A stretch of 26,503 nt of DNA from a virus: positions 1 to 26,503 of the IMG/VR virus record IMGVR_UViG_3300042924_008133; one strand, written 5' to 3'. Positions 1 through 22,004 of this stretch are shown piece after piece. The notes beneath the pieces were generated by a model, which made no database searches, was not told the origin of the DNA, and saw nothing but the letters and a program-made list of their open reading frames with translations. Position 1 is the stretch's first letter. Each line of letters starts with the position of its first letter. A program made the position numbers and the translations under genes.

Positions 1-338
1 GTTCCTGATGTGCCAGATGTACCACTTGTACCTGTTGTCCCTGATGTTCCGCTAGTACCAGATGTACCAGATGTACCACTTGTTCCTGAGGTACCAGATG
101 TACCATCTATTCCGGAAGACCCAGAAGTACCACTTGTACCTGTTGTGCCTGATGTACCGCTAGTACCAGAAGTTCCAGTTGTTCCGGATGTACCACTTGT
201 ACCTGATGTACCATCTATTCCTGAGGTTCCAGATGTTCCACTTGTACCCGTTGTTCCTGAAGTACCACTTGTACCAGATGTGCCGGAAGTACCACTTGTT
301 CCTGATGTTCCATCAATACCTGAACTTCCACTAGTTCC
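1..338 (-). repeat. Collagen-like GTS triplet repeat array
   Basis: On the minus strand this stretch encodes about 37 consecutive Gly-X-Y triplets. Most are GTS. GID appears at triplets 3, 14 and 26, giving spacings of 11 and 12 triplets, twice directly after GSS. GTT triplets recur between them, so there is a higher-order period of roughly 33-36 residues. Codons vary between units (GGA/GGT/GGC, ACA/ACT/ACC, AGT/TCA/TCT/TCC), so the array is maintained at protein level more than as identical DNA. It continues past base 1. Confidence 0.9.
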
Positions 339-1214
339 CGAGGTTGTTGAAATGGCTGTTACAGTAACTGTTATATTACCATTTCCATTGTCAGTTACAG
401 AAGCACCAACAAAGGTCATACCAGTTACACTGTTAACTGTTGTTACACCGTCACCAACTTGTAAATCAGCACCGGTAAATCCAGCAACATTTATGGAGGT
501 ACCATCACTGCTATTTAAAGTTAAAGTTTTAGTTCCGGTGTCAAAAGTTCCACCGGTAATTGGCGCAGTAAACCCTGTTATAGTAATTGTACCTCCAGTA
601 CTATTATCTAAAATTACATAATTCGAATTTGGGGTAGTTGCAGAATAGTATGTACCCCCTGTAATTTGTACGTCGGTACCCAAAAAAACTCTCCAACGAG
701 CATCTTGTCTCGAAACACCATTAACACCTTCAATAGTTGAACCAGTCCACGCAGAAATGAAATCTTGTCCAGCCTGGGAACGGTTGTTGATTGCCGTTGA
801 ATACTCAGAAATAGTTATTGCAGAGAGTCCTGTCAAGCCGGTTAAAACTGTCCATGCCGCGGTATAATCTGGAATATGGTATTGATAAACAGTGTCTGTT
901 TCTTGAACATAAACTTGCATACCTAATCTTCTTCTTCCAGACGAAATATTATCTGAATTTAAAAATAAGGTATCTCTAGAAAATGCGTTGTTTAGACCTT
1001 TAGTAAACTGAATCGGAATTGTGTTTCCCGATAACTGTACTGGGCCCTGTGTAACACTTCCAAAAGACCAAACCAACTCATCTAAACTATAAACTTCCAT
1101 GTATCCCCCCGTTTGTAAAACAGAGAAATTAGTTCCAAATGTAGAAGTTCTTGATACAGATTCAGAACCGGAAAGTTGAGCTGCGGTTATTGGATTTTTA
1201 TAAGGAAATGCCAT
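1..1214 (-). CDS. Tail fibre/adhesin with collagen-like Gly-Thr-Ser repeats (5' part; 3' end outside window)
   Basis: This open frame starts with MAFPYKNPIT at 1214 and runs off the left edge; 404 residues are visible. Residues 1-292 are a non-repetitive, Thr/Gly/Ser/Val-rich region that looks beta-structured. From residue 293 to the edge it is an unbroken run of Gly-X-Y triplets, almost all GTS, with occasional GTT, GSS and GID. Collagen-like triplets are common in trimeric phage fibres, where they form a rigid shaft before a receptor-binding tip, so the tip is probably encoded beyond the window. The ATG is preceded by an A-rich leader with no Shine-Dalgarno sequence and by the palindrome TATTTATAAATA. 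It is the last visible gene of the adhesion block, after the Pro/Thr-linker and SprB-like genes. The fibre role is inferred from repeats and context; no specific family was recognised. Confidence 0.8.
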   Translation of the reverse strand, partial: MAFPYKNPITAAQLSGSESVSRTSTFGTNFSVLQTGGYMEVYSLDELVWSFGSVTQGPVQLSGNTIPIQFTKGLNNAFSRDTLFLNSDNISSGRRRLGMQVYVQETDTVYQYHIPDYTAAWTVLTGLTGLSAITISEYSTAINNRSQAGQDFISAWTGSTIEGVNGVSRQDARWRVFLGTDVQITGGTYYSATTPNSNYVILDNSTGGTITITGFTAPITGGTFDTGTKTLTLNSSDGTSINVAGFTGADLQVGDGVTTVNSVTGMTFVGASVTDNGNGNITVTVTAISTTSGTSGSSGIDGTSGTSGTSGTSGTSGTSGTTGTSGTSGTSGIDGTSGTSGTSGTTGTSGTSGTSGTTGTSGTSGSSGIDGTSGTSGTSGTSGTSGTSGTSGTTGTSGTSGTSG

Positions 1215-2400: not shown

Positions 2401-2706
2401 TTATGGCGTGAATTCTGTAACAGTCATGGTAAATGTACAGTCAACAGATTCAACAGAAATTGCAAAAGCACAACCGAACGTACAATCTAAAATTTCAAAT
2501 TTTTCACAACCCTCATTATCTAAAAGGATGAGCATAATTTGCGGAGCAGTATCAAATAACGCTGGAGGATAAAAATTTGCGTCAGGAGGAATAGCTCCAG
2601 TATTGCTAATGGTTCCAATTAAAACTCTATTGTTACCATATATGTCAGCAACAAATACACTTATCGGAACGTTTCCAGAAACTAAAGAAATTCTAATTTG
2701 TGTCAT
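2401..2706 (-). CDS. Small structural protein of the adhesion cassette, 101 aa
   Basis: The start is taken at ATG 2706 (MTQIRISLVS). This ATG overlaps the TGA stop of the 827-aa gene as ATGA, the classic arrangement for translational coupling, and it is preferred to a TTG three codons upstream. The product is a short, probably all-beta protein with no signal peptide and four cysteines in its second half (in ...NEGCEKFEILDC, ...FGCAF and ...DCTF). Coupling to the SprB-like protein suggests the two are made in fixed ratio, perhaps as partners in one appendage, or that this is a detached tail domain. I do not recognise the family. Confidence 0.7.
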   Translation of the reverse strand: MTQIRISLVSGNVPISVFVADIYGNNRVLIGTISNTGAIPPDANFYPPALFDTAPQIMLILLDNEGCEKFEILDCTFGCAFAISVESVDCTFTMTVTEFTP

Positions 2707-5186
2707 GTCAAGCAAATGATGTCGTATACTATAATTAGTTTGACGCTCAGTTCTTGACCAATGATGGAACTACCAGGATTAGCAGAAATTGAAATTTGAT
2801 TTGTCAGAGGGTTGATATTAACAGCAGTAACACCTTGGATACTTTGCAATAAGTTTGTTATGGTTGTAAACCACAGATTATCACTTGGCACATCAACCAA
2901 GGAATTACCAGTATAAAAAGTGTTGTTTAAGAAAGTATTTTGGGGTTGAATTTCAATTTGAGCCGTATATGTTGCTGATATTAAAATACATTCACTGTTA
3001 CCAGCAGTTAAATCATTAAACCCTTCAACAAGTATTTGATTAATACCATGTTTTGTTGGAGATAAAATGTTAAAAACCTCTGAACCCATTGAATAGGTCT
3101 GAAAGGTTACGCACTTGGCGGCACATTCTATAATTGTTTCTCTTGATAATGAACAACCATTCGCATCTTGCACAATTAACGAATATGTGCCACCGGAAAG
3201 ACCCTCAACAGTAATTTCTTGGGGGTTACCAGCAACGTTTGCACTCCAATTAAAATTAAAGGGTGCCGTGCCTTGGGTTATAAATGCTGTTATTATGCCC
3301 TCGTTTCCAGAACCACAAGAAGTCGAGTACAAAGAAAAGTCTACTGGTACCGAACTCGATATTGTGAACGGAGTGAAAATGGAACATCCTTCAGAATCAA
3401 CAACGGTCAATATGTGTTGCCCAGGACTTACGTTTGAAAACGTAACCCCATATAAATTAGAATCCACAATGTTGTTTGTCCCGTCAATAGAATAGGTTAA
3501 AGGCAAAACAGCTTCCTCACTTATGGATACTTGCAACACACCATCATTCAAGCCACAAGTAGCTGGTTGCAAAGAAATGGAAATTTCAAATTTATCCTCA
3601 GCAATCAAAGTCACTTCCGTGGTGTATACGCAACCTGTGGTATCTTCCACAAAAATTGAATATGTACCCGATTCCAAATTCGAAAAAATTTGTGTAGTTG
3701 TGTTACTGTTGACAGAATTCATATCCCCACCAGGATAAATTAATGTATAAACATAAGGAGCTACACCCCCAATAACACCAACGTTAATAGACCCATCATT
3801 CGCCGAACAAGTTGAATTAGTAGTAGAAACATTAACAGAAGAAATTCCACCAGGACTAGCAATCGAGGTCGTTGCCAAAAATTTACATAATCCAGCGTCA
3901 GTTACACTTATACTATAATTTCCATTACTTAAATTGGATAAGGTTAATGTTCTTAGATAACTTATCTCAGAATAACCTGTGCTGGCAGAATAATAAAAGG
4001 GGGGTGTACCATCAATAACAGTTATTGTAACGCTACCATCAGCTTCAAAACAAGTCGGAGATGTAGAAGTTATTGTCCCTAATGCAACCGGCTCCACCTC
4101 AGTGATAAGCGCATTTTGCGTTAATTGACACCCAAGCGAATCCGTAACTTGCACAGAATAAACACCAGGGGTCAATCCCGTAATGCTACTCTGTGTAGAG
4201 CTGTTATTCCACAAGTATGTAAAAGGGGGGGTGCCCGTAATTCCTGTCACGTAAATTTTACCTGAAGGTAAACCATTACACGAAGCATCAGGAACAACAT
4301 ACAACCCATAAGAAAGCGGAGTGGATTGCTCAACAATAAAATTAGCACTACGACCAGTTGCACCCCCCCCATCAGACCCAAATAAATAATAAGTTCCCGC
4401 AGAAAGATTATTAAATTCTACGGTACCAGTATTACTTGCTTGAGATTGTACCAATATATCATTATTGGTAAAAACCTGGTAATCAGTTATTGCAAATACA
4501 GAAGAAGAAGTTCCTGTCACAGAACCATTGTCCGAACCACAAGTAGTGGAATTTACATTTAATATTGAAACACATAAACATTCTGATATAGTAACGTTTA
4601 TAAAAAATTGCGCATTGACAGGGCTGGCTGAATCGTTAGCTCGAACAAAATAAGTTCCAGGTGCTAAATTTGTTTTTATAGGACCAGTGCCAAGTTCTGG
4701 ATTATACCAATCAAAAGTATACGGTCCTACCCCTCCAGTTGGGATGATTTCGGCACTACCAAAACCCGTTTCACAAGCACCAATAATATCAAGGGTGTAA
4801 TCAAAAATAACACCATTACCAAATGGTGTTGTTGTACTTAAAGTTCCCGTTGGGGTGGGGGTCACGGTTGGGGTAGGTGTGTTTGTAGGGGTTGAAGTAT
4901 TTGTCGGGGTTGGTGTGGGTGTGGAGCAGGTTTCTATTGATGTTATAACACCACCACCAGAACCAACCACATAAACGACTTGGGGATTTAAACTATCCAG
5001 AATATACCATCCATCGTTTGCTTCAGCGGATACACTGCAACCAGCACCATTGTAAATAATATCACCAATTGCGGGTGAAGAAGGAGTGACCTCATCAATA
5101 GAATAAATCTCTAAACTGGGTGAGGTACAAACTTCACTTAAACTTATAAAACTAAAATCAATTGGTCCTAGGTTACGACACGCCAT
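2703..5186 (-). CDS. Large phage adhesin-like tail protein with seven SprB-like repeats, 827 aa
   Basis: Domains in order: an N-terminal region (1-86), a Pro/Thr linker (88-121), about seven tandem repeats (136-688), and a C-terminal module (about 692-827). Each repeat follows one plan: a Cys followed by an acidic or Asn/Gly stretch and a short beta strand, then G-(T/V)-x-P-(F/Y) with an aromatic strand, then L-x-x-G-x-Y-x-(V/I)-x-V-x-D, and in most copies a closing G-C. This matches the SprB repeat family of flavobacterial gliding-motility adhesins. The paired cysteines of repeats 3-7 (C303/C353, C379/C434, C460/C519, C544/C601, C624/C678) lie about 50-60 residues apart. The C-terminal module resembles the C terminus of the preceding 1000-aa protein. 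There is no signal peptide, so assembly into the virion is more likely than secretion. It starts 15 nt after the 1000-aa stop, and its own stop overlaps the next start. Host-surface binding is inferred. Confidence 0.85.
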   Translation of the reverse strand: MACRNLGPIDFSFISLSEVCTSPSLEIYSIDEVTPSSPAIGDIIYNGAGCSVSAEANDGWYILDSLNPQVVYVVGSGGGVITSIETCSTPTPTPTNTSTPTNTPTPTVTPTPTGTLSTTTPFGNGVIFDYTLDIIGACETGFGSAEIIPTGGVGPYTFDWYNPELGTGPIKTNLAPGTYFVRANDSASPVNAQFFINVTISECLCVSILNVNSTTCGSDNGSVTGTSSSVFAITDYQVFTNNDILVQSQASNTGTVEFNNLSAGTYYLFGSDGGGATGRSANFIVEQSTPLSYGLYVVPDASCNGLPSGKIYVTGITGTPPFTYLWNNSSTQSSITGLTPGVYSVQVTDSLGCQLTQNALITEVEPVALGTITSTSPTCFEADGSVTITVIDGTPPFYYSASTGYSEISYLRTLTLSNLSNGNYSISVTDAGLCKFLATTSIASPGGISSVNVSTTNSTCSANDGSINVGVIGGVAPYVYTLIYPGGDMNSVNSNTTTQIFSNLESGTYSIFVEDTTGCVYTTEVTLIAEDKFEISISLQPATCGLNDGVLQVSISEEAVLPLTYSIDGTNNIVDSNLYGVTFSNVSPGQHILTVVDSEGCSIFTPFTISSSVPVDFSLYSTSCGSGNEGIITAFITQGTAPFNFNWSANVAGNPQEITVEGLSGGTYSLIVQDANGCSLSRETIIECAAKCVTFQTYSMGSEVFNILSPTKHGINQILVEGFNDLTAGNSECILISATYTAQIEIQPQNTFLNNTFYTGNSLVDVPSDNLWFTTITNLLQSIQGVTAVNINPLTNQISISANPGSSIIGQELSVKLIIVYDIICLT
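3123..4781 (-). repeat. Seven tandem SprB-like protein repeats
   Basis: Repeat starts are near residues 138, 216, 303, 379, 460, 544 and 624 of the 827-aa protein, giving a period of about 75-87 residues. The conserved core is ...DGS(I/V)...GGxxPYxY...L(S/T)xGxYxxxVxDxxGC. Repeats 1 and 2 are more divergent and lack the closing GC. DNA similarity between copies is low, so these are old repeats and not recent duplications. Confidence 0.85.
4824..4925 (-). repeat. Pro/Thr linker repeat in the 827-aa gene
   Basis: Residues 88-121 are tandem Pro-Thr and Asn-Thr units (TPTPTPTN, TPTPTVTPTP). They separate the N-terminal region from the SprB-like array. The DNA composition (GGTTGGGGT-type repeats on the plus strand) is like that of the linker at 1886-2047. 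Confidence 0.85.
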
Positions 5187-5201: not shown

Positions 5202-8200
5202 TTATGCAGGTTCTACCTGTCTTGTTATTGGACAATCTAAGGTTATGTTTATTCCAACATTTAAACTTACGTTTTGTAAAGAATTTTCCAATACGCAATT
5301 TAAATTTGTTATTGTCAAGAAGTTTCCGTTCAAAGTATAGGTATATCCGTACTGATATAAATTGTTAAGATTATCAATTAAAGTTTGCCTCCATAATAAC
5401 GACGTGGGAACATCGTTAATTCCTGAACCTTGATAAAAAAACACATCAATAATTGTTTGATTCCCAATTGTTAAATTCAAATACCATTGTGAGCTAATTG
5501 AATTAGGATTATAAAACCCAGCATTTGACCCGACTGAAATCAAATAATTATTAACCCTATTTATCAAAATAGCTTGGAAATCAGATACCGTAACATCACC
5601 ATTCAACCAAGGGTAAATAAAAAAATCAACATATTCTGTGTTGCAATCGTAATCAAATATGTTGGAGATAATAAAACAAGGTTGAGCTTCTACCGGAATT
5701 AATTGACAACCTCTTTGACGTCGATATACAAATTTTTGTTTTTGAAAAATAGAATTTTCCAATCTCACACCTGTATTCCAAAGTGTTGTTGCTGGAATCA
5801 TTTGTTCAATAAGTTTCATCCAATATGGGCCAATAGCATCCACGTATTCAATAAGTTTTTGATACGTGTACTTGTTGTTTGGTATACCAACAGTTTGTTC
5901 AGATTCTAGATATTTCCAAAACACCGATTGTAGAGTTGGGTAACCCCCCGTTTTGCCATCAGAAATAAACATTCTATTTCTGGTGTTAATCATGTTTTGC
6001 CAGAAAGTTTGATAAAATTCGAAAAAAGTTTTTTTCTGTGGCTCGGGGTCTATAAATGTATCATCAATTCCCCCTGGCGATGGAAAATTTGCTGTAAATC
6101 CAGACTCGGGTATCGGATAGTTAAACAACCTTGACTGGTCCCATACATCATACGCATAACCTTGTCCAACATTTAAAAACAAATCAATATTTTTGACATT
6201 AAGAACAAGTTTTTCATCGTCAGTAAAATAGTAAGCTTCATAACCACCTTCAGTATCAATTCGTAAACGATTATCTGTGGCAACCCATGATTTTTTGTTG
6301 TCAGCTATTTTTCTCAATTTAAACCCTTCTTGCATATAGGGAAATTGATTGAATCTGTCTAAATAAATTCCTCCGTAGGTAAATGGTTGTAATTGGGTTT
6401 GTACATCCACATTTTGCCCAGTGAATACGTCACCAGTAATGGTAATCTGATTTGGACTTCTGTGGTCTGGTGTGGATTCATACCATCCTGCCCCTTCTTG
6501 GAAAAAAACTCCATTTGTACCAGCGGGATTGGGTGCTTTTGGAAATCCTAAATCATCAACCGGATAATCATTTCTTCTTATATTAACGGTTTCAAAAGTT
6601 GAAGATGTTGTAAAGGCTGTAAAAATTTGACCTCTTATTGAAAATGTGTTTCCTGGTGACAATGCAGGTTGCTCATTCACATAAGTTCCACCAGACAATT
6701 GCGTAAACTGAGTATCGAACTTACTCATACTAATTCTCTGGTCAGCCAGATAAATATTTTCGTTGAATTCTATAAGAGCTTCTGGTGCGCCAATCAATCT
6801 TAATAAAAATTCTATTGAACGCCTTGTTCCTTTTGATTTAAAAAGGTATGCAGAGTTTAGAATTAAATTTCTATAAAACTGATAATTTAATTCAGTGGGG
6901 GTTTGTGCCCTAGCATAACCAGGATATTCTATTTGATTAGTATTCCCAAAGACACTGCCTAAAAAATCTTCATCGGTTATTGGTGAAAAATTATTACTCC
7001 AACCCAGAGTTTGTGATAAGTTAAAAAGTAACTGAGAAGGTATGTCGTTTTGCGGAACATAGTTAACAGAATTCATGTTTGCTAACGCATCGATATACTG
7101 CTTTACTTGGTCAAAACTTCTGCCATATATTTGTAGAATTTTTTCCACCTTTTGGTCCATAGTATCAAACTCTTTGATTGATGCTGTTACCAAAAATCTA
7201 GAAATCAAATTAGTTTTGTAAGTGTCCAAATCTTCTGCGACATCGGCTAATCTGGTTAGATATTCATCAAACCTAAAAGATGTGATGTCCAAGTTCCAGT
7301 CACCATCTTTGGGGAAGGTAATTTGAACATAGGAAGTATAAAACTGACCCGCTTGGTTTTGTTGAGGCACCTGGAAGTTTGCCGTGTACTCCGGTCGAAT
7401 CAATCGATTCATCAGAAATTGTTCAACCTCATCGAAGTTTTCTTGGAATACTTTGTCAACTATGTAATCACTCGGTCTAATTAAAAAGTTTTCCACAGTT
7501 GACGACGTACTAACTCCAAAAGGTGCTCCAGATACGACAAACACTAAATTTCCAGAAGATTGACTTGTTGAAGGTACAAAATCAACAACAGGATATTTTA
7601 TATCATCATAATCCAAAACATAATTCAAATAGCTTCGAGTTAGATTTCGATACTGGGATGCTTCAAGTTCTCTAACCATCAAGGCTGTGGTAGCACTTTG
7701 TGAAAACTCGATTAAAAATGGATTATATGCTTGTAATACTGGTACCGTAAAAGTTGTTTCTTTCTCAATTGGGTCGTATGAAATGTTTGTTGCTGTTTGA
7801 CCTGATGAAAAATCTGGCATCAGTCTTCTTACATCCAAAGCTGCCGGAAAAAAATTAATTATATGAGTGACCGATACACTTAATCTTTTAGCTAAAGAAC
7901 CATAAAGAGAAAAATTTAAGACCTGTGAAACATCATAACTAGGGTAAACTCTAAATTGCGTCTGTAAAATTCGTCTACTTTCCTCTAATGAATTTACATC
8001 CAAATCCTCAAGAGATATTGGGTTGGAAAAAGTACCAATTGAAAATGTCCGGTTAACTTTTTCAGTTACAGATGTTGTAAAATCAAAAACAGCAGATGTT
8101 AAACCGCCCCCCTCGACAACTTGAAATCCTACAATGTCGTCAAAAGTTCCAGCACCATTACCTGGGGTTGGTGGGTAGAAAAACTTCGTGCTATTTATCG

Positions 8201-8204
8201 CCAT
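5202..8204 (-). CDS. Large tail/baseplate structural protein, 1000 aa
   Basis: This soluble 1000-residue protein lacks a signal peptide and starts with MAINSTKFFY. Residues about 310-400 are helical and charged. Around 445-475 is the segment YLFKSKGTRRSIEFLLRLIG. Such K-(S/T)-K-G-T-x-x-(A/S)-(I/L)-x-x-L-L motifs are known in tail proteins of the P2 gpI/baseplate-hub type, where the chain attaches fibres to the baseplate. The C-terminal module (about 918-1000), with GSGINDVP followed by LWRQT, resembles the C terminus of the next protein (827 aa). Its ATG overlaps the TAA of the upstream gene as TAATG, so the two are translationally coupled. From position it may connect the baseplate to the adhesion cassette. 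The structural role is fairly sure; the exact equivalent in T4 or P2 is not. Confidence 0.75.
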   Translation of the reverse strand: MAINSTKFFYPPTPGNGAGTFDDIVGFQVVEGGGLTSAVFDFTTSVTEKVNRTFSIGTFSNPISLEDLDVNSLEESRRILQTQFRVYPSYDVSQVLNFSLYGSLAKRLSVSVTHIINFFPAALDVRRLMPDFSSGQTATNISYDPIEKETTFTVPVLQAYNPFLIEFSQSATTALMVRELEASQYRNLTRSYLNYVLDYDDIKYPVVDFVPSTSQSSGNLVFVVSGAPFGVSTSSTVENFLIRPSDYIVDKVFQENFDEVEQFLMNRLIRPEYTANFQVPQQNQAGQFYTSYVQITFPKDGDWNLDITSFRFDEYLTRLADVAEDLDTYKTNLISRFLVTASIKEFDTMDQKVEKILQIYGRSFDQVKQYIDALANMNSVNYVPQNDIPSQLLFNLSQTLGWSNNFSPITDEDFLGSVFGNTNQIEYPGYARAQTPTELNYQFYRNLILNSAYLFKSKGTRRSIEFLLRLIGAPEALIEFNENIYLADQRISMSKFDTQFTQLSGGTYVNEQPALSPGNTFSIRGQIFTAFTTSSTFETVNIRRNDYPVDDLGFPKAPNPAGTNGVFFQEGAGWYESTPDHRSPNQITITGDVFTGQNVDVQTQLQPFTYGGIYLDRFNQFPYMQEGFKLRKIADNKKSWVATDNRLRIDTEGGYEAYYFTDDEKLVLNVKNIDLFLNVGQGYAYDVWDQSRLFNYPIPESGFTANFPSPGGIDDTFIDPEPQKKTFFEFYQTFWQNMINTRNRMFISDGKTGGYPTLQSVFWKYLESEQTVGIPNNKYTYQKLIEYVDAIGPYWMKLIEQMIPATTLWNTGVRLENSIFQKQKFVYRRQRGCQLIPVEAQPCFIISNIFDYDCNTEYVDFFIYPWLNGDVTVSDFQAILINRVNNYLISVGSNAGFYNPNSISSQWYLNLTIGNQTIIDVFFYQGSGINDVPTSLLWRQTLIDNLNNLYQYGYTYTLNGNFLTITNLNCVLENSLQNVSLNVGINITLDCPITRQVEPA

Positions 8205-17886: not shown

Positions 17887-19725
17887 TTAAGAAAATGATA
17901 CGTTTTGTAAGTTCTTAACTCTTACCACAATGTCTTTTTGTGGATATCTAACTTGATAAACCTGGTTTGGTTCGGCGAATATAGTGTCGTCTACTGGTTG
18001 AATTATTTTCAATTCAGGGTCAGAATATGTCATTGAGGTTTCTGCCCCTGAATATTGACCACCTACTTTGTTGGAGATTGTAATATCGGCAACTGTAATA
18101 ACACCTGTTTGATTTTGAACTATGCTTCTTAATTGTGACAGATAAACGTTTTGACCTAATTCCCTTACGATTGGATTAAAGTATTCAGAAATTCTATTAA
18201 CAATCTCTGAAACAACTTGTCCAGAGTTTTGGGTTGCATCAAGTACTACTGAAACATCTACACCTAAGTCAATTACGTTTGCTGTGGTGACTTGAATGTA
18301 GTCATTTATCATGCGATAATTTGAAAGGTAGTTAGCAACATTTTGTTTTAACGTATTGGATACAATATTTGTAAGTTTACCAGAGGTGTCAAACGACAAC
18401 AAGTTTATAAGAATTTTATTGTTATTTTCAGTAATAGAAACTTTTGCTGGAGCACCAAATTGACTTGGCATGTTTCTTAAAAGAGATTCATAGTCGTTAA
18501 CGGTGACAGCTCTTTTCTGTGCTGAAAAATTGAAGCTAACATAATTTCTTACTTCTTCTGTTGTGGGAACATTTGAACCGCCAATAGCCGCTGTTGGGTT
18601 GTTGCATCTCAAAGAGTTGATTACGGCAGAGTTAATTGTTTGGGATGGGCCATTAACAAAGAATGAAACTGTTCCAATCTGATTAATAACATTGGTTCCA
18701 ATATTAGTTGCAAGTCCCCCACCTATTCTGTATTGTATGAATAATGTTGAATTTGGAGATAATGTTGACCCTAAAGAAAAATTATTACTCAAAGATTGTA
18801 GATTCACAGGAACACCTAAATTGGTAAAAGCATTGAGTTGGTCTTGTGCAGATGTTGTTCCTCCACCAAATGTCATTTTTAAAAAACCCTCCGGGGTAAA
18901 TTCAGTTATAAAACGACTGTTTGTTTGAATGTATCTACCAACTTTAATACCTGGTTGGTCAGATACTTTAGTTGGGTCCTCTATAAAAACGCGGTCTTCA
19001 GCTAACGCATCAACCTCGAGCCATCTGTTTTCTAAGCCCAAGAATTCTGATGCTGTAGGAACGTTTGTATAATTAGTACCCGATTTCAACAAAACACTAG
19101 TAATCCCAAGAACATTTTTTTCAGGTAAAAACAAATCAAAAAAAGGTCTTACATCACTAGGATTAACTACCCTTTTGAAAACTTTAGTAATTCCATTCAC
19201 TACCAATTCTCTTTTAGTAATTGTATAGTTAATTAAATTACCATTAGCATCAAAGTTTGGTATTTTTGTTCTATTTGGAAATCCCGAGCTATTATATGGC
19301 GATGCAAAATCAACATCGTTTTGATTTTCAAATGCAATACCCGCACCGAAAACTTGGGAACCCCTAGTCAAAATACCCAAATATCTTTCATCTTCTTTGT
19401 CTCCAAACGCAGGGACAGTAATTGAATAATCAACCAATGCTACTGAAGGGCGTTGTCCGGGTACTTTTAGACCGTAGGTTCGGGCTATATTATAAATTGA
19501 AGACCTTTGCTGAGCATATTGTAGAACAGTTTCTTGTATACTTCTGTCAATATTATAATGAAGGTTGTCTGCAATTGCAGCATTCAAATCAAGAAAAACT
19601 GAAAACACCGAGGCATCATTAAAATCCTGGATTAATTCAGGATAATAAGTTCTGACATAATTTTGTAATTCAATTCTAATACTTTCGTAATCCCTAGCAG
19701 TATAAGATATTCTATTGTTAGCCAT
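17887..19725 (-). CDS. Baseplate wedge protein, T4 gp6 / baseplate J-like, 612 aa
   Basis: The N terminus (MANNRISYTARDYESIRIEL, then a long helix with DFNDASVFSVFLDLNAAIAD and NIDRSIQETVLQYA) is typical of gp6/J-like baseplate proteins. The length is close to T4 gp6 (660 aa). The middle and C-terminal parts contain the usual beta-rich core and the segment FSAQKRAVTVNDYESLLRNM, another recurring J-family feature. In T4, gp6 dimers form the inner ring of the baseplate together with gp25 and gp53. The gene begins 5 bases after the gp25-like stop, the expected partner. There are no signs of truncation. The product acts in the virion baseplate. Confidence 0.88.
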   Translation of the reverse strand: MANNRISYTARDYESIRIELQNYVRTYYPELIQDFNDASVFSVFLDLNAAIADNLHYNIDRSIQETVLQYAQQRSSIYNIARTYGLKVPGQRPSVALVDYSITVPAFGDKEDERYLGILTRGSQVFGAGIAFENQNDVDFASPYNSSGFPNRTKIPNFDANGNLINYTITKRELVVNGITKVFKRVVNPSDVRPFFDLFLPEKNVLGITSVLLKSGTNYTNVPTASEFLGLENRWLEVDALAEDRVFIEDPTKVSDQPGIKVGRYIQTNSRFITEFTPEGFLKMTFGGGTTSAQDQLNAFTNLGVPVNLQSLSNNFSLGSTLSPNSTLFIQYRIGGGLATNIGTNVINQIGTVSFFVNGPSQTINSAVINSLRCNNPTAAIGGSNVPTTEEVRNYVSFNFSAQKRAVTVNDYESLLRNMPSQFGAPAKVSITENNNKILINLLSFDTSGKLTNIVSNTLKQNVANYLSNYRMINDYIQVTTANVIDLGVDVSVVLDATQNSGQVVSEIVNRISEYFNPIVRELGQNVYLSQLRSIVQNQTGVITVADITISNKVGGQYSGAETSMTYSDPELKIIQPVDDTIFAEPNQVYQVRYPQKDIVVRVKNLQNVSFS

Positions 19726-19730
19726 ATATT

Positions 19731-20201
19731 TTAAATATTCAAAATGACAAAATCACTTTGGGCAAAAGTGTTATTATCTACAGCATAGTCAATTCTCACT
19801 TTTGCGGTGTATTCTGACGTGCCTTTACCAGGCACTCTAAAGACATTGTCTTTTGCCTGACCAGGAATACTTTCACCTCTAGCCAACGGTACTTCTTCAG
19901 AGGGGTCTGCGGGTTCGATGGTTATATTATTTATTAAAAGATTAGGCATAAATTGTTGTACGGAGTCTCTAATATCTGCTTCAATCGCATCAAAAGTTAA
20001 CCCGTCAAAAGGTTCAAATAAAAATTCATATAATCTAGTTCCAAAAGTTGGCAAGTAATATCTAGAACCTTTTCTGGTAAGTAATAAATGAATTAAATCA
20101 CTTCGAATTTGAGCAAACTGAGTTTCAGTTAATAAAAGAAAATCACCCCTACTGGAATTTTCAAATGGAAATGCTAAACCATATGTGACACCTTCAGCCA
20201 T
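19731..20201 (-). CDS. Baseplate wedge protein, gp25/GPW family, 156 aa
   Basis: This is a small wedge subunit of the T4 gp25 / P2 gpW family. Residues about 36-65 carry the family hallmark: LIHLLLTRKGSRYYLPTFGT followed by RLYEFLFEPFD. This region binds gp6-type partners and starts the tail sheath. The length is in the family range (T4 gp25 is 132 aa), with a modest C-terminal extension. It lies just upstream of the gp6-like gene and is the first gene after the strong terminator at 20241-20273, so it opens the late structural block. The ATG at 20201 follows the TATTTAT box closely, so the true transcript may start further up. Confidence 0.92.
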   Translation of the reverse strand: MAEGVTYGLAFPFENSSRGDFLLLTETQFAQIRSDLIHLLLTRKGSRYYLPTFGTRLYEFLFEPFDGLTFDAIEADIRDSVQQFMPNLLINNITIEPADPSEEVPLARGESIPGQAKDNVFRVPGKGTSEYTAKVRIDYAVDNNTFAQSDFVILNI

Positions 20202-20297: not shown

Positions 20298-22004
20298 TCA
20301 CGCCTCACATGATGCACAATGCAAATCATTCAAATTCAATTTTTTTCTAGCAAATGCCTGAGCCGAATTCATAGAATGTTGATAATAAAGAGTTTTGACT
20401 CCTAACTGCCATGCGTCTACCAAGAGTTTATTAACAGCTTTAGTGGGCAAATCCGGTGAAATCATAAGATTTAAAGACTGGGCTTGGTCGATAAAATCTT
20501 GTCTGATAGCTGCCTGGTTAATAATTGCGGATTGATTAATTTCAGCAAATGTTCTAAAAACTTCTTTTTGTTCATCAGTTAAAAACTCCAAATGTTGAAC
20601 TGAGCCATCATTCTTTTTAATACTATCCCAAGTTGACTTAGTGTCTTTACCCAAGTTAGCGAGTAGTTTTTTCAACACGGGATTTTTGATAGTAACTTTA
20701 ATTTTAGCTACGTCTTTCACATAACAATTTGACCAAATTGGTTCGATTGATTGTGATACTTGTCCTAAAATAAATGCAGATGATGTTGTTGGAGCAATTG
20801 CGTTTAAAGTGACATTTCTACGACCATAACCAACTAAAGTTTCTGGTTCGCCAAACATGTTGGCTAATTCAGCTGAAGCCTTGTATGATTTTTCCTTGAT
20901 AAGTTTGAATACTTCAATATTCAATTTAGCAGTGTCACGACAATCAAAGGGTAAACCTTTCGATTGCAATAAAGAATGCCAACCTAAAACTCCCAAACCA
21001 AGCGCACGCTGTTTTTTAGCAAAGTTGTAAGCTTTTTCTAAATAGAAAAAAGCACGTTGTCCTTCAATTGTCCCATTATTTCTAATAGTATCAATCTTTT
21101 CAATAAATTCTGTTACTACAGCGTCCAAGAAATAAATCATCATCTCTACAGCATCAGTATCTTTCCATTCGTCGTAATGCAAAACATTCATTGAAGATAA
21201 AACACATACAAAAGATTCCTCCTCCGAATTGTGAAGTGCAATCTCTGAGCATAAATTTGAATTATAAATCTTCATTCCTTTTTCCTGATAAACCTCAGGG
21301 GACTTTTTGTTCATTGTGTCAGCAAACATAATATATGGATAGCCGATTTCTCCTCTACGTTGGATAACTTTAGCCCAGATAGCTCGTTTCTTTTTATCAC
21401 CAGCAATCATTTCCTCCATAAACTGGTCAGAAACTGTTACTGCATGGGTTAAATCCTGAATAGGAAATCCTTCAGTACCTATTTCCAAAAATTCCATAAT
21501 GTCTGGATGTTCAACTGGAAGGTATGGTGAAAATCTACCGCGACGTGTTGAACCCTGAGAAATGTTGTCCACAACACTTTGGAACAAGTTCATAAAGTGT
21601 ACTGAACCTGGTGCGTGTCCGTTGTCTGTAATTTCAGCACCACGGCCACGAATGTTTCCAAAGTAACCTGAAGTTCCACCACCCATTTTACTCATCTCAC
21701 CGACCTCCGCTTGAGTGTAAAGAATTGACTCAATATTGTCACCAATATTTGAACCAAAACAACTAACGGGTAATCCACGCTTTTTTCCAAAGTTCGCCCA
21801 CACCGGTGAAGAAAGTGAGTACCACCCTTTACCCATATAATCGTAAAATTTATCCGCAAATCCTTCAATACCTAAAAGCTTTTCAGCGTGTTCAGCAATT
21901 GTTCTAATCCGTTCTAAAGAGTCTTCTCCTTCACTCAAATATCCTCGACGAAGAAATGTAATTGACTCATCATTAATCCAGTCAAAAGGTTCTCTATTTT
22001 CCAT
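20298..22004 (-). CDS. nrdA: Class I ribonucleotide reductase large subunit, without ATP-cone, 568 aa
   Basis: This is the catalytic alpha subunit that reduces ribonucleoside diphosphates to deoxy forms for phage DNA synthesis. Expected active-site residues are visible: C82 (LPVSCFGSN), N250-C252-E254 (NLCSE), C267 in FVCVLSSMNV (the partner cysteine), the radical-transfer tyrosines Y540/Y541 (KTLYYQ) and a C-terminal redox pair C563/C566 (CASC). It is much shorter than the usual 750-800 residues because the N-terminal ATP-cone is missing; it begins directly with the helical region MENREPFDWI. The cone is instead on NrdB, as in some flavobacterial enzymes. It follows nrdB by 24 bases and ends at the strong terminator. 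No intein is present and all key residues are intact, so the enzyme should be active. Confidence 0.96.
   Translation of the reverse strand: MENREPFDWINDESITFLRRGYLSEGEDSLERIRTIAEHAEKLLGIEGFADKFYDYMGKGWYSLSSPVWANFGKKRGLPVSCFGSNIGDNIESILYTQAEVGEMSKMGGGTSGYFGNIRGRGAEITDNGHAPGSVHFMNLFQSVVDNISQGSTRRGRFSPYLPVEHPDIMEFLEIGTEGFPIQDLTHAVTVSDQFMEEMIAGDKKKRAIWAKVIQRRGEIGYPYIMFADTMNKKSPEVYQEKGMKIYNSNLCSEIALHNSEEESFVCVLSSMNVLHYDEWKDTDAVEMMIYFLDAVVTEFIEKIDTIRNNGTIEGQRAFFYLEKAYNFAKKQRALGLGVLGWHSLLQSKGLPFDCRDTAKLNIEVFKLIKEKSYKASAELANMFGEPETLVGYGRRNVTLNAIAPTTSSAFILGQVSQSIEPIWSNCYVKDVAKIKVTIKNPVLKKLLANLGKDTKSTWDSIKKNDGSVQHLEFLTDEQKEVFRTFAEINQSAIINQAAIRQDFIDQAQSLNLMISPDLPTKAVNKLLVDAWQLGVKTLYYQHSMNSAQAFARKKLNLNDLHCASCEA

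Follow-up and report, generated by a model that had tools for sequence, protein, structure and literature searches.

Our analyses of a 26,503-base virus record, the whole stretch of DNA referred to here as the window, identified an 827-aa protein (minus strand, positions 2703 to 5186; open reading frame with a match to PF13573) that carries seven tandem repeats of the SprB type. The repeats form a fixed array, their gene is constantly linked to baseplate genes, and the protein has no recognizable sorting signals. It is probably an adhesive rod of the virion that stands on the baseplate, in T4-like phages that form a large group without cultured members. In the order of transcription, the minus strand encodes an exonuclease, a DnaB-like helicase, and the small and then the large subunit of ribonucleotide reductase; these are followed by a gp25-like baseplate wedge (positions 19731 to 20201; phrog_261, 3e-16), a gp6-like baseplate wedge (positions 17887 to 19725; phrog_6, 4.5e-22), and several large proteins without assignment. 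The last part of the order consists of a 1000-aa protein (positions 5202 to 8204), the SprB protein, a small conserved protein whose ATG overlaps the stop codon of the SprB gene (positions 2401 to 2706), a protein with Thr/Pro linkers (positions 1265 to 2272), and a collagen-like fiber protein cut by the window edge (positions 3 to 1214; Pfam Collagen, 4.5e-16; PHROGs tail fiber, 1.1e-12).

Seven SprB-type repeats in a row

A scan of viral contigs with the SprB protein yielded 326 relatives, 80 of which were retained and examined (loci L041 to L120). Alignment A5 comprises 43 proteins, namely, the window protein and 42 of the 45 cluster representatives (L041, whose contig sequence is that of the window, L050, and L069 were omitted); a further alignment, A6, comprises 28 of 31 representatives plus the window.

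The SprB assignment, originally predicted from the sequence of the window, was confirmed by a match of the whole protein to PF13573 at 70.5 bits (E value of 8.9e-20; curated cut-off of 28), and the location of the repeats at residues 126 to 686 nearly coincides with the predicted span of 136 to 688. A six-frame search matched five of the seven repeats singly at an E value of <=0.001: R1 (residues 126 to 204, positions 4575 to 4811; 1.6e-7), R3 (residues 293 to 368, positions 4083 to 4310; 3.6e-9), R4 (residues 369 to 448, positions 3843 to 4082; 2.4e-7), R5 (residues 449 to 532, positions 3591 to 3842; 1.4e-8), and R7 (residues 613 to 686, positions 3129 to 3350; 4.6e-4). Only R3 and R5 exceed the family cut-off individually; 14 control genomes gave no PF13573 match in the identical search. 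R2 (residues 205 to 292, positions 4311 to 4574) and R6 (residues 533 to 612, positions 3351 to 3590) miss this E value singly and are joined to the other repeats by profile-profile comparison alone (probabilities of 96.6 to 97.2 for R2 with R5 and 98.5 to 98.6 for R6 with R5); the predicted structure delimits both, as it does R1. The same family is matched at an E value of <=0.001 in 43/43 proteins of A5, and the window protein has no match to Ig_3 at an E value of <=1 in Pfam. The array thus consists of full repeats framed by a Cys pair, except that R2 of the window protein has Ala276 in place of its second Cys, a column occupied by Cys in 34 of the 43 aligned proteins; the framing pair of R3 to R7 is present in all 43. 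A profile of the phage repeats (84 positions) matches repeats of Bacteroidota over almost their full length (best E value of 2.7e-20) and finds 35/35 host loci, these loci having themselves been gathered with PF13573.

Structure prediction, one of the checks proposed with the original prediction, gave a series of beta-sandwiches. In the AlphaFold2 model, they succeed one another over residues 126 to 686, mostly at pLDDT values of 80 to 93, and are followed by a separate C-terminal alpha/beta domain of moderate confidence (pLDDT blocks of 49 to 89). Residues 1 to 124 are modeled at pLDDT values of <50 and are read as disordered; they include an N-terminal extension missing from most aligned relatives (residues 1 to 87, positions 4926 to 5186) and a Thr/Pro linker evident from the sequence (residues 88 to 121, positions 4824 to 4925). 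Among PDB entries, the model is matched best by fragments of GhpA, the grappling hook of Aureispira (Foldseek, 2.1e-19 to 9flp), which, unlike the phage protein, belongs to a bacterium. With VIA, GhpA (Z score of 12.1) and fibronectin type III (11.5) nearly tie, and the GhpA match, with an rmsd of 42.9 over 507 residues, reflects a shared beads-on-a-string build. This comparison barely covers the C-terminal domain, for which VIA lists no match. At the level of sequence, the window protein has no match among PDB chains at an E value of <=1, and the A5 profile found nothing among PDB sequences at 0.01.

A conserved place in the baseplate cluster

The gene had been predicted to lie within a baseplate/tail cluster, and the gp25-like and gp6-like genes of the window, together with the comparison of loci, agree with this. 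In all 80 loci retained from the 326 relatives, the gene for the 1000-aa protein lies directly upstream on the same strand, with a gap of -10 to +15 bases in 79/80 (246 bases in the remaining one) and a one-base overlap with the SprB gene in 65/80; in L095, it is split into two frames. Downstream, among those of the 80 loci that are long enough, the small gene is present in 75/76, the Thr/Pro gene in 70/72, and the collagen-like gene in 39/39. A search with the 1000-aa protein retrieved 34 viral loci (L006 to L039). The SprB gene is next in 27/27 that reach far enough to be scored; six of the other seven end within the gene for the 1000-aa protein, and L017 ends within the N-terminal extension. 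The small gene scored in 19 of 24 of these loci, and in the remaining five, a related N terminus is fused to the Thr/Pro protein. As these contigs overlap with L041 to L120, the main counts were taken on the latter set. The SprB protein thus belongs to the conserved content of a baseplate gene cluster in phages, and its array is not a stray capture.

This constant location bears on the possibility that the protein decorates the capsid in the manner of Hoc, as an Ig-like rod on the head with weak surface binding. Among the PHROGs families, just one gives a low E value, and this is indeed the Hoc-like head decoration family phrog_2973 (3e-9, over three stretches); one host SprB fragment (L227) matches the solved decoration proteins 5lxk (2.9e-4) and 8zvi (5.8e-4). 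The SprB gene nevertheless follows a gene of the baseplate cluster in 80/80 loci, and its product ends in a domain that resembles that of its upstream neighbor, so that we regard a place on the head as improbable.

A C-terminal domain resembling that of the upstream protein

The 1000-aa protein and the proteins matching it have no Pfam or PHROGs family, and it has no match in the phages collection. Its residues ~298 to 482 match large proteins of Microcystis phage Mel-JY01 (3.8e-11) and Flavobacterium phage immuto (1.5e-4), whose genes lie two or three places beyond gp6. An identity with gp7 was considered and set aside, as there is no family match and the matches are partial; "gp7-like" describes its position only. 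Its model is poor outside the C-terminal domain (mean pLDDT of 39.8); when a viral library was searched with it, a single protein of an uncultured phage, at 47% identity, stood out from otherwise weak rows.

The C-terminal domains of the SprB protein (residues 690 to 827, positions 2706 to 3119) and the 1000-aa protein (residues 840 to 993, positions 5226 to 5687) resemble each other in profile comparison and in their models. Shallow profiles of the two domains aligned with a p value of 1.3e-4 and an hhalign probability of 53%; deeper profiles scored 19.5, with an hhalign probability of 8.8%, whereas none of 55 decoy windows taken from the locus exceeded 8.2 and none of 60 column shuffles exceeded 11.0. 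When the full-length proteins were compared, the best alignment paired the two C-terminal ends (p value of 0.0033; hhalign probability of 9.7%). Both models have the element order strand, helix, two strands, helix, three strands, short extra helices apart. Given the low hhalign probabilities, common descent of the domains is supported without being certain, and the evidence that the two proteins share a C-terminal domain is moderate. The likeness suggests that the SprB protein docks on the baseplate through this domain, probably on or beside the 1000-aa protein.

An old array of fixed length

The core of the protein, formed by the seven repeats and the C-terminal domain, measures 702 to 712 aa in 43/43 aligned proteins. 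Each of the 301 repeats in these proteins finds its best match outside its own protein at the equal array position, and in the tree, each repeat position forms one clade on a long stem (support of 93 to 100), which indicates that the array is old and fixed. In cellular genome G098, in contrast, many repeats within one frame score identically. The array thus predates the diversification of the group, with neither growth nor shrinkage among the members examined. The ends are more variable: repeat 1 is preceded by at most 8 residues in 35/43 proteins and by 22 to 386 in 8/43, the C-terminal domain is followed by 152 to 422 residues in 6/43, and the N-terminal end carries Thr/Pro linkers and Cys-rich modules in several phages.

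Such constancy might be expected of a mere tail spacer, in which the repeats would serve as a ruler that keeps the collagen-like and Thr/Pro fibers off the baseplate without binding anything themselves. The very constant core length, the 35 of 43 proteins with next to nothing at the N terminus, and the fiber genes that follow in nearly all loci of sufficient length all fit this function. We nonetheless consider it rather unlikely that spacing is the whole role of the protein, because 8/43 proteins have at least 22 residues in front of the array and 6/43 have at least 152 behind the C-terminal domain; large modules added at either end are what would be expected of an exposed end.

The proposal that the phage may have taken adhesin modules from its host reads as a recent capture, against which the age of the array argues. 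Comparing the repeats phylogenetically with those of host adhesins, as had been suggested, resolved clades for the array positions but named no donor. The tree was built by a quick method from 82 columns and 122 of the 149 collected repeats (8 of the 43 phage proteins and no more than two repeats from each of the other sources), and it singles out no donor; 73 of its 119 inner branches are open. A single clade for all phage repeats is not rejected (p-AU of 0.894), and the tree with the phage repeats held together scored 38 log units above the result of the free search. A scan of genome_contigs with A1 gave no relative (12 stretches fit the pattern, none of them confirmed). NrdA has 115 relatives in genome_contigs, and among the best 80 of these, 40/80, as counted from titles, come from genera that we take to belong to the Flavobacteriaceae, mostly at 63 to 65% identity; a Paenibacillus occupies the first row, and Patescibacteria groups account for many others. 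NrdA thus gives a weak hint of a possible Flavobacteriaceae host. Searches of the phages collection with gp6 and DnaB reached at best 27 to 28% identity.

Sorting signals and probable presence in the virion

In agreement with what had been predicted, the window protein has no type IX sorting domain that scores above the respective cut-off. CHU_C was not found with Pfam, Por_Secre_tail scored 26.0 bits against a cut-off of 27 and was placed inside the repeats, and NCBIfam TIGR04183 scored 17.1 bits against 23. Within A5, Por_Secre_tail is reached at an E value of <=0.001 in 2/43 members, again with no sorting domain over the cut-off. The predicted absence of a signal peptide fits 35 of the 43 proteins, in which no more than 8 residues precede repeat 1 and there is no room for one, whereas 125 residues stand before repeat 1 in the window protein; this judgment was made by length and by eye. 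The place of the gene in a baseplate/tail cluster, the lack of sorting domains over the cut-off, and the lack of room for a signal peptide in 35/43 make it likely that the protein goes into the virion, as originally proposed. One further candidate for a phage with SprB repeats, LR756502.1, was rejected. Its protein has 13 repeats, a CHU_C domain (5.1e-14), and PKD, and its gene lies beside those for gyrase A and B, SpoVR, and glutamate synthase; we take this protein for a host-type adhesin, and it was left out of the phage set.

Relationship to host adhesins and to other phage proteins

The phage protein shares with the SprB-type gliding adhesins of Bacteroidota the tandem repeats of ~75 to 80 aa, the motif plan, and the Cys pair. 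It differs from them in having no sorting domain over the cut-off, a fixed repeat number, and a gene in a baseplate cluster. Two Cellulophaga baltica proteins with SprB repeats are encoded by frames of 4141 and 4827 aa, and PF13573 is carried by 50/198 genomes sampled from the phylum of the C. baltica genome G002.

That phages carry Ig-like domains is well established. Fibritin whiskers of the pseudotevenviruses RB43, Margaery, and KKP_3664 are likewise virion proteins of the T4 type whose Ig domains match PF13573 (7.4e-11, 4.8e-12, and 2.5e-13, respectively; only these three whiskers were scanned). Unlike the window protein, these whiskers carry Fibritin_C, and Ig_3 matches them better than PF13573 does; their gene sits between those for the short tail fiber and the neck. 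Neither Fibritin_C nor the Phage Tail Collar domain was found in the window protein at an E value of <=1 with Pfam. With the C-terminal 174 residues of the KKP_3664 whisker as the query, 1071 phage records were matched at an E value of <=0.001, which indicates that Ig-like domains of this sort are common in phages. Together with the resemblance of L227 to decoration proteins, these matches suggest that SprB repeats and the Ig domains of phages belong to a single broader Ig-like set.

The nearest named phages by gp6, Mel-JY01 and immuto (27% identity), have no PF13573 match in their records. Within ~10 kb downstream of the large protein that corresponds to the 1000-aa protein, Mel-JY01 encodes a laminin-G protein (Laminin_G_3, 3.2e-14), and immuto encodes gp104, with a collar match (2.8e-4) and Gp10_C, both below the cut-off. 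The lectin-type match and the weak collar-type matches fit a region of receptor-binding genes. The BACON and other Ig-like adhesins that PMC13370021 describes in gut phages are similar to the SprB protein in that they are modular, Ig-like, encoded near structural genes, and assigned to Bacteroidota hosts by CRISPR matches. They differ in their modules, which in the accessible text are BACON, PKD, Big2, and unspecified Ig-like domains; "SprB" occurs 0 times in the main text of that paper.

A possible role in adsorption

Our results are best explained by a rod in which seven SprB-type beta-sandwiches in a row would form a spacer of fixed length, with the C-terminal domain on the baseplate and the N-terminal end facing outward. 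Such a rod would most likely adhere to a glycan or protein of the cell surface at adsorption, along with the neighboring Thr/Pro and collagen-like fibers.

A more specific use of the gliding system can be envisaged, in which the rod would bind the glycans of host SprB, or SprB or its track, and ride on moving adhesins. In its favor, the phage repeats are almost full-length homologs of the Bacteroidota repeats, whose family is found in a quarter of the genomes sampled (50/198), and PMC13288928 states that phages can use gliding proteins to adsorb, with SprB and RemA as possible receptors. According to PMC7345892, the receptors of Flavobacterium columnare phages probably belong to the gliding machinery. 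We judge this use unlikely: repeats 1 to 7, being old and fixed, do not resemble a recent copy, and three enterobacterial T4-type whiskers match PF13573, so that such repeats alone do not imply a gliding host. A putative scheme in which the baseplate rod binds SprB ligands or SprB repeats and the moving adhesins then bear the particle to the injection site is likewise improbable.

As far as our search results show, no SprB repeats have been described in a phage protein, and none of these results reports a fixed array of such repeats among the core components of a baseplate cluster. The SprB literature found otherwise concerns gliding, fish pathogens, a Bacteroidetes toxin class, and unrelated genes of the same name. 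What SprB repeats bind in gliding adhesins is, to our knowledge, an open question, and the compact form with seven repeats and a fixed length offers a tractable protein for finding their ligands. The gene for the array can also serve as a marker for this uncultured T4-like group. The SprB-array protein is a real, conserved, and widespread variant of the Ig-like adhesins of phages.

Matches to the SprB family (PF13573) were also found in proteins other than the seven-repeat SprB protein of the window and its close counterparts. In the fibritin whiskers of Citrobacter phage KKP_3664 (L238:1429-3990), RB43 (L239:2207-4495), and Margaery (L240:2198-4486), the whole-protein score exceeded the PF13573 cutoff; the Ig domains that follow Fibritin_C in these whiskers match. 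The relative phage of virus record G204 encodes, besides its main SprB protein, another protein that matches PF13573 weakly (4.3e-6 and 2.2e-4), carries Thr/Pro linkers as well, and is adjoined by a similar linker protein (L245:4376-6694 and L245:7015-9483, both on the minus strand). The main SprB gene lies about 15 kb away, and the product of L245:4376-6694 matched no family at 0.05 in the Pfam scan. The 1,670-amino-acid SprB protein with CHU_C (L040:13231-18243) belongs to LR756502.1, a 642-kb record named "uncultured phage"; the stretch around it, where genes for gyrase, SpoVR, and glutamate synthase adjoin, looks cellular.

In the window SprB protein itself, repeat 2 lacks its second Cys, at residue 276; Cys is kept there in 34 of the 43 aligned proteins. 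The collagen-like fibre of the same cassette (window 3-1214) contains GTSG-type repeats, whose length varies greatly among relatives; long spurious ORFs arise there because other frames remain open across the repeat. Among the matches listed for the window NrdA (gene at 20298-22004), identity to Flavobacteriaceae NrdA was about 65%, and Patescibacteria records came close after.
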